DNA of 64,000 nucleotides, from assembly GCF_001025195.1 (NCBI RefSeq), contig NZ_AP012325.1:1798001-1862000 (forward strand), written 5' to 3'. Each line of letters opens with the position of its first letter. The first letter of the stretch is position 1. Below the pieces are notes generated by a model. It was not told the DNA's origin. It saw nothing but the letters and a program-made list of their open reading frames with translations, and did no database searches. Made by a program: the position numbers and the translations under genes. Positions 50,170 to 51,724 of the stretch are shown in pieces. Source of the stretch: Bifidobacterium catenulatum DSM 16992 = JCM 1194 = LMG 11043. Its GTDB lineage: Bacteria; Actinomycetota; Actinomycetes; Actinomycetales; Bifidobacteriaceae.

Positions 50170-50255
50170 CCGGCAGGGTGGCATAGACATAAAGCGATTC
50201 CACAAACTGGCTTACGTATGGCAGATTCGGCAGCCCAACCGGTGGTATCTCAGTT

Positions 50256-50341
50256 ACCCTTGATTTGGTGTATAAATAGCACTTCGCTTATCCTTGATTT
50301 GGTGTATAATTGAGCATGTTATTACCCTTGATTTGGTGTAT
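50256..50341 (+). repeat. Three 18-bp direct repeats with exact 34-bp period before ATPase 2
   Basis: ACCCTTGATTTGGTGTAT at 50256 and 50324, and ATCCTTGATTTGGTGTAT at 50290. The spacers are 16 nt and unrelated in sequence. The last copy ends 15 bp before the ATPase ATG. The constant period suggests a protein lining one face of the DNA or an RNA-level repeat. It is too short and regular for ordinary CRISPR. Confidence 0.9.
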
Positions 50342-50356
50342 TTACGGCGGTGAGAC

Positions 50357-51724
50357 ATGGAGACTTTCGAACGAAAAGCGTACGAAAAACTGGCTTCCTG
50401 GAAAGATTCTTCCCAAGGAAGCACAGCCCTGCTCATCGAGGGCGCACGGCGCGTCGGGAAAAGCACCATCGCGGAGGAATTCGGACGACGGAACTATGCG
50501 TCGTATATGCTCGTCGACTTCTCGAAAGCCCCCGATGACGTGCTGGGCTACTTCGTCGACCTGCGCAACGACCTCGACGCGTTCTTCATGTACCTGTCAT
50601 CCTTCTACGGAGTGGAACTGCACAGGAGGGATAGCCTCATCATTTTCGACGAGGTGCAGCTGTATCCGAAGGCCCGCGAGGCCATCAAGCAGCTGGTGGC
50701 TGACGGGCGTTACGACTACATCGAGACGGGGTCGCTTGTCTCCATCCGCGAAAACGTCAAGGACATCCTCATTCCATCAGAGGAGGAGTCGATCCGCCTA
50801 AATCCCATGGATTTCGATGAATTCCTCTGGGCTTTGGGAGAAAAGCCACTGTCCACGCTCATCGCGGACTCGTTCAAGAAGCGCAGGCCGCTCCCCGATT
50901 CGCTGCACAGGAAGGCCATGCGGCTATTCCGTGAATACATGCTGGTCGGAGGCATGCCCCAGGCCGTGTCGAAGTACGTCGAGACCCATGATTTCAGCAA
51001 AGTCGACAACGTCAAACGGAACATCCTCCGACTGTACAGGCAAGACATCTCCAAACATGGCGGCAGCGACCGGATACGCATCACGCGCATCTTCGACAAC
51101 CTGGTGGGCCAGCTTTCCAAGAAAGAGAAGAAGTTCAACATCACATCGCTGGGAAAGGAAGCGAAGACCCGCGATTACGAGGACGCCTTCTTCTGGCTTT
51201 CCGACGCGTTCATCACCAACGACTGCTTCAATTCCACTGATCCGAGCGTGGGGCTAAGCATCAGCGAGGACCATTCGACGGTCAAATGCTACGCCGCCGA
51301 CACCGGACTTCTCACCACTCTCGCCCTGGCCGACTCGGAACAGACCGGAAGCAACCTGTACCGGGACATCCTCCTAGAACGCATCGAAATCAACGAGGGC
51401 ATGCTCGCGGAGAACGTCGTCGCACAGCTTCTCCGGGCCAACGGACACCGGCTGTTCTTCTATTCGCGCAGCGATCGTGACGACCCGTCGAACCGCATGG
51501 AGATCGACTTCCTCATCGTCGAACCGTACGAGAACGCGGCAATGAAGTACAGGGTCAGCCCCATCGAGGTCAAGTCATCGAAACGCTACCGCACGGTCTC
51601 GTTAGACAAATTCAAGGCAAAATTCGATAAGAAGGTCGGCACCAGATACGTGCTGCATCCGAAACCGCTGGTCGTGGAAAATGACGTGGTCAAGCTGCCG
51701 ATCTACATGGCGGGACTGCTGTAG
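50357..51724 (+). CDS. AAA-family ATPase with DUF4143/PD-(D/E)XK-like C-terminus (2)
   Basis: A 455-residue protein, distantly related to ATPase 1. Walker A ALLIEGARRVGKSTIAEEF (about 24-42), Walker B SLIIFDEVQLYPKAR, sensor YIETGSLVSIREN. The middle winged-helix part has KKFNITSLGKEAKTRDYED. The C-terminus has MEIDFLIVEP and SPIEVKSSKRYRTVSL, a good match to the D and E-x-K of PD-(D/E)XK nucleases. No clear ribosome-binding site precedes the ATG, which lies 15 bp after the direct repeats. Role unknown. Possible defence, addiction or selfish function is inference. Confidence 0.85.
   Translation: METFERKAYEKLASWKDSSQGSTALLIEGARRVGKSTIAEEFGRRNYASYMLVDFSKAPDDVLGYFVDLRNDLDAFFMYLSSFYGVELHRRDSLIIFDEVQLYPKAREAIKQLVADGRYDYIETGSLVSIRENVKDILIPSEEESIRLNPMDFDEFLWALGEKPLSTLIADSFKKRRPLPDSLHRKAMRLFREYMLVGGMPQAVSKYVETHDFSKVDNVKRNILRLYRQDISKHGGSDRIRITRIFDNLVGQLSKKEKKFNITSLGKEAKTRDYEDAFFWLSDAFITNDCFNSTDPSVGLSISEDHSTVKCYAADTGLLTTLALADSEQTGSNLYRDILLERIEINEGMLAENVVAQLLRANGHRLFFYSRSDRDDPSNRMEIDFLIVEPYENAAMKYRVSPIEVKSSKRYRTVSLDKFKAKFDKKVGTRYVLHPKPLVVENDVVKLPIYMAGLL

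Follow-up and report, generated by a model that had tools for sequence, protein, structure and literature searches.

PDC-S01 has been described as an abundant candidate defence system combining an ATPase with a PD-(D/E)XK domain (PMC12988326, PMC13356809). It is reported to rank fourth in abundance among prokaryotic defence systems, with about 29,500 instances in bacteria and 10,000 in archaea (PMC12988326), and the passages on PDC-S01 in these two papers mention no cis element and report no assay for it. Direct repeats at a defence promoter are known from RptR, which represses its own defence promoter via three direct repeats overlapping the −10 box; the target of repression is a restriction-modification defence island, and de-repression on infection has been proposed (PMC12255303). 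Here, a 64,000-nucleotide stretch of the Bifidobacterium catenulatum genome (contig NZ_AP012325.1, positions 1,798,001 to 1,862,000; hereafter the window) was analysed, in which an ATPase-nuclease gene is preceded by three direct repeats. Judged from comparative evidence, these repeats are likely to be an autoregulatory operator of the following gene, bound head-to-tail by the gene product, which would probably act as a repressor.

The three repeat copies are located at 50254–50275 (unit 1, TTACCCTTGATTTGGTGTATAA), 50288–50309 (unit 2, the penultimate one) and 50322–50343 (unit 3, the last one), with start-to-start distances of 34 and 34 bp; the features of the array and the gene given here and below are on the plus strand. 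A sequence-only reading of this DNA had reported three 18-bp repeats with a 34-bp period, ending 15 bp before an ATPase gene, and this description was confirmed: the 18-mers start at 50256, 50290 and 50324, the middle copy differs by one base, and 15 nt separate the last 18-mer from the ATG at 50357. The 16-bp core of the repeat has exactly three exact matches in the window, where the chance expectation is 0.39 even with three mismatches allowed. A genome-wide pattern search showed that, in the 2.08-Mb genome, the exact core occurs in the window array only, and that the matches with two mismatches elsewhere are single. Matches with one mismatch that occur singly in other genomes of the genus were set aside: CCTTGATTTCGTGGAT is present in eight genomes, and inspection of one of these copies showed that it reads as coding sequence. 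A two-copy repeat with a lag of 34 (CAAGTCAGGCAATACCAAGCCAAG) was also observed at 22496–22553 of the window, not upstream of any family member. The same reading had held that the gene lacks a ribosome-binding site, which now appears doubtful, as GGTGA at 50349–50353, found by direct reading 3 nt 5′ of the ATG, is possibly an acceptable Shine–Dalgarno variant that could serve this gene as a ribosome-binding site.

The gene (50357–51724) encodes a 455-aa AAA_14–DUF4143 ATPase-nuclease. Both Pfam domains were matched above their curated cut-offs, AAA_14 with an E value of 1e-19 (71.4 versus 27 bits) and DUF4143 with an E value of 8e-22 (78.1 versus 28.1 bits). PADLOC profile PDLC04786 matched the protein over its full length (aa 4–454, E 8e-106) and PDLC04792 matched it with an E value of 2e-102; one or the other was the best model for each of 11 array-type members tested. 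By PADLOC profile, the window gene belongs to PDC-S01, an abundant phage-defence candidate. The NTPase domain spans aa 23–157 (50423–50827), with the Walker A motif GARRVGKS and the Walker B motif IIFDEVQ.

An AlphaFold2 model built from 47 sequences (pLDDT 90, pTM 0.90) showed three parts: an ATPase, a region interpreted here as a winged helix, and a domain of PD-(D/E)XK-like fold. The winged helix-turn-helix, predicted from the secondary structure of the model, covers approximately aa 236–313 (51062–51295). The C-terminal domain (aa 347–434; 51395–51658), with pLDDT mostly above 80, has the order helix, three strands, helix, strand, and carries D...ExK residues on the core expected of the PD-(D/E)XK superfamily. 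E352, D384, E404 and K406 are invariant across 32 aligned homologues, and E404 is nearly invariant also in a wider homologue set. These residues and the element order in the model bear out the earlier notion of a PD-(D/E)XK-like core at the C-terminus, and the protein is predicted to be a putative PD-(D/E)XK nuclease.

A phmmer search returned no solved-structure relative of the window protein by sequence. By structure comparison, the best neighbours of the model were the archaeal STAND-type ATPases PAB2304 (2qen; Z 16.7, rmsd 4.0, 266 residues aligned) and SSO1545 (2fna; Z 15.3), followed by CED-4 and plant NLRs. The matches to 2qen and 2fna span 266–274 residues of aa 1–324, i.e., the ATPase and winged-helix part, which in the model has the NTPase plus winged-helix fold of STAND and archaeal (SSO1545-like) ATPases. 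PF01637 was not among the matches of the window protein up to an E value of 1, a weak match being obtained for the neighbouring PDC-S01 gene only; hence the window protein is regarded as one that appears to fold or work like SSO1545-type ATPases and is not filed as a PF01637 member.

The array at this locus is not an isolated case. A Bifidobacterium sample was assembled that comprised 110 family loci, including that of the window, with proteins down to about 30% identity; 109 loci were usable, and an array was called where a chain of direct repeats upstream of the start scored ≥8. The result showed that 99 of the 109 upstream regions carried two to six direct repeats (mostly three to four units) just before the start, compared with 0/2180 dinucleotide-preserving shuffles and 0/109 regions on the 3′ side. 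When single lags from 20 to 61 bp were scanned, 10, 60 and 25 Bifidobacterium loci fell at 32, 33 and 34, respectively, and none of the remaining lags drew more than one locus. The corresponding numbers for 77 relatives from outside the genus, mostly from other phyla (Clostridia, Bacteroidales, Spirochaetales, Coriobacteriia, Kiritimatiellae, one Chloroflexi and others), were 2, 52 and 7, again with at most one elsewhere. About 10% of the upstream regions from Bifidobacterium and about 20% of those from outside the genus are below the array threshold. In the AT-rich genomes outside the genus, 9 of 79 3′-side controls pass a looser chain test, a background that the single-lag scan does not have.

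The repeat units, about 18–22 nt in length, are asymmetric and all point in one direction, and their sequence varies among loci: TACCCTTGATTTGGTGTATAA in the window, and TACCTGCAGAATCGTGTAAAA, AAACCTTAGAAACGTGCAATC, AAGTTCTGCATTTCGTGT and many others elsewhere. The expectation that homologues of this gene also have repeats upstream is thus upheld as far as the array is concerned, and fails as far as a single shared 18-mer is concerned, the sequence differing by lineage. The window array is one case of a family-wide rule in which the step is constant (33–34 bp) and the sequence is lineage-specific. Paralogues within one genome also carry different repeats, which were not shown to differ more than those of other pairs of equal protein identity. 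One such paralogue in the genome analysed here (L130, C1:259227–261516), 32% identical to the window protein, carries a 33-bp array whose four weak units (GGTTGnAAAA...) differ from those of the window.

Spaced repeats bear a superficial resemblance to CRISPR, and a small CRISPR-like array, or repeats arising by chance or from low-complexity DNA, might be proposed. Such an origin is exceedingly improbable, as it is contradicted by the shuffle, 3′-side and lag-scan controls and by the fixed place of these short, two- to six-copy units before one gene family. The locus does not qualify as a CRISPR array, no cas-like gene being noticed among the ORFs at 44–58 kb of the window.

The array coincides with the predicted promoter. 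A −10 box, TATAAT, is predicted at 50305–50310, 52 nt before the ATG and inside unit 2, at its 3′ edge, and in closer homologues a TATAAT-like hexamer directly follows the GTG core. In the 29 loci where one unit has the best −10-like hexamer, this was the penultimate unit in 21, compared with about nine expected if the placement were random. With the −10 box in the penultimate repeat, the predicted core promoter is overlain by the array, whose last unit falls within the predicted 5′ leader. On the evidence of this overlap, repression would be the most probable sign of regulation.

Covariation between repeats and protein was analysed in homologue pairs with 45–80% identity, in which the similarity of 15-residue protein segments was compared with repeat similarity while the rest of the protein was held constant. 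The results showed that the top segments were residues 263–283, inside the predicted winged helix. The partial rank correlation was 0.46–0.48, and 0.53–0.55 in pairs with 50–70% identity, against an all-segment mean of 0.05–0.06 (sd 0.14–0.18); the homologue pairs are not independent, and the correlations are therefore given with no formal P value. In the positive controls, a 44-nt piece of the ORF starting at codon 201 (codons 201–214) pointed to residues 203–217 (0.42) and leader DNA pointed to residues 5–19, and in the negative control DNA upstream of the array tracked no protein segment (maximum 0.09). In a half-sample jackknife the top segment fell within residues 254–286 in 51 of 60 draws. 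The region covarying with the repeat sequence, aa 257–286, corresponds to 51125–51214 and is taken as the putative recognition region. A second, weaker peak, for which this reading does not account, lies at residues 98–124. In the set from outside the genus, residues 365–389 in the nuclease domain ranked first (0.34) and the helix region second (0.27), so that replication is partial; over all pairs, including distant ones, the profile was flat, and the signal was present only in pairs above approximately 45% identity. The matching can be seen by eye: EKRLVYTQVENGSRSRDFMTAF pairs with ACCTTAGAAACGTGCAAT, the helix EKRFTLASV..AR.R.YD.AFFWLEDARL pairs with the repeat ACCGTTGTTTTCGTGTA, and the helix ARSRDYD.AFFWLDDARL pairs with the repeat CGGCGGCATCGTG. 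A separate observation concerns residue 270 (51164–51166), which is K in the window protein and in the homologue from genome G102 and R in other close relatives; the repeats of the K270 members mostly read GGTG, within TTTGGTG, instead of CGTG, in one lineage only.

Since the repeats vary in concert with the putative DNA-reading helix encoded by the gene itself, the gene product most likely binds the promoter in front of it and thereby controls its own expression. Promoter overlap by itself is silent on the identity of the binder, and a separate host regulator could be supposed to bind the repeats. However, the repeat sequence follows the winged helix of the adjacent gene, array and ORF are held together across genomes in one cassette, and the presence of different repeats in members of one genome argues against one shared host regulator, which makes such a regulator very improbable.

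A segment comprising the array, the gene and short flanks (50228–51871) is replaced by unrelated DNA in G019, a genome of the same species. Where two genomes have unrelated flanks, the homologous stretch commonly begins with the first repeat and ends no more than a few bases from the stop codon, as in the pairs L013/L015, L014/L015, L033/L034, L023/L024 and L039/L065. The array and the ORF form a one-gene cassette that travels between genomes as a unit. Family relatives with less than 60% identity are encoded on 13 phage-labelled contigs and 59 plasmids. The 18-mer had been expected only together with such a gene, and this does not hold strictly: at least three genomes have the 18-mer with no intact gene. 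In G098, at a site orthologous to the gene site of G102, a deletion has removed the ORF and left three decaying repeats; in G037 the same neighbours flank a lone array, placed where a relative has the gene; and G040 has a gene copy interrupted by an IS607-like element as well as a separate three-unit array. Arrays can thus outlive the gene, two of the solo arrays (G098 and G037) being at sites of gene loss. The junction between an rfbB-like and a sulfatase-like gene (49135–51926) was observed to be a hotspot: it is occupied by the array cassette in G000, a YafQ-like toxin gene in G019, a solo array in G037, and an IS607-like element with gene remnants in G040.

The movement of array and ORF as a unit, the strain-specific presence of the segment and the solo arrays remaining after gene loss would also suit repeats that act as mobility signals, either a recognition tag or the end of a mobile element. 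This is improbable, given that the 3′ end lacks a partner repeat, that target duplication was not seen and that the cassette contains no transposase or integrase. Moreover, the loss in G098 resembles an ordinary deletion with filler, and a gene that brings its operator along should also show such co-movement. The recognition tag suggested by the sequence-only reading has thus gained no direct support: the array travels with the ORF, but nothing marks the 3′ end. Its other suggestion, autoregulation, is well supported, albeit indirectly, by the family-wide arrays, the −10 box in the penultimate repeat and the covariation with the winged helix.

From these comparisons, physical binding of the array by the gene product is considered probable. 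In the operator model, the gene encodes a STAND-like AAA ATPase that ends in a PD-(D/E)XK nuclease domain and would bind each asymmetric repeat through its winged helix, and copies of the protein would align head-to-tail every 33–34 bp over the core promoter. The bound copies would most likely repress their own gene until a trigger such as infection, ATP state or titration frees them, and each lineage of this self-contained cassette would have its own repeat/helix pair. A possible, though less probable, alternative is that the array, instead of being an operator or in addition to that role, is an assembly and loading platform on which the ATPases oligomerise as DnaA does on oriC boxes; the array would then control the nuclease, which would be inactive while parked and released on infection. 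Asymmetric repeats in the same direction with a near-constant spacing across phyla are what head-to-tail contacts would give, and the structural neighbours are oligomerising STAND/Orc-type ATPases. However, the array lies on a promoter with the −10 box in a fixed unit, and a mere platform needs neither. It is doubtful, although conceivable, that this STAND-like ATPase-nuclease class uses its self-encoded 33–34 bp array both as an assembly platform and as a sensor of cell state; if so, loss of occupancy, for instance when a phage takes over the cell or matching DNA titrates the protein, would switch the gene on and free the nuclease. Under the preferred reading, an autoregulatory operator, a family-wide fixed step with a readable repeat-helix code would offer a direct way to test gene switching; the code allows matched and mismatched protein–array pairs to be made, and the array could be used as an annotation marker for the family.

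A second PDC-S01 gene is located at 47479–48714 on the minus strand, about 1.6 kb before the array, and matches model PDLC04787, as do the seven members tested from its subfamily. The two adjoining genes share their Pfam domains and each has its own upstream cis element, but the neighbour has palindromes (48736–48790 and 48861–48910) and no 33-bp array. Its relatives carry other palindromes, e.g., TTCCGGGGGGCAAAATTG/CAACTTTGCCCCCCGGAA, and many members of the PDLC04787 subfamily have upstream inverted repeats in place of arrays. Downstream of the neighbouring gene, a 111-bp stretch (47363–47473) contains another palindrome copy (78 bp, 87% identical to 48862–48939); this stretch is absent from G019, and a similar copy without the gene is present in G037 and G040.

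In the open-access literature, outside which most subscription journals and preprints lie, no paper was found on self-regulating arrays of this kind, nothing was found on DUF4143 with direct repeats or on autoregulation together with repeats and defence, DUF4143 by itself is mentioned in one paper, and mentions of COG1373 were incidental only. PAB2304 and SSO1545, the closest structures, have a sequence identity of 14–16% to the window protein, and the match barely covers its C-terminal nuclease-like part. IniR of mycobacteria, whose AAA+ domain has been compared with that of SSO1545, binds a promoter and regulates transcription; it differs in its target, iniBAC, and in its MalT-like sensor domain, and the description of IniR includes no nuclease domain (PMC5760070). 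The closest known mechanism to the window array is that of RptR. RptR is a separate 9-kDa homodimer that uses 9-bp repeats around a 6-bp palindrome (PMC12255303), whereas in the window system the 455-aa ATPase-nuclease would itself be the binder, and the asymmetric repeats of about 18–22 bp recur every 33–34 bp. With its single gene and repeats without TAGCTA, the window system lies outside the RptR type, but by analogy it may still work like RptR. The operator reading suggests a STAND-type ATPase as its own promoter-bound regulator, and what is new relative to the described systems is an effector that seems to regulate itself, through repeats whose spacing is near-universal and whose code is specific to each lineage.
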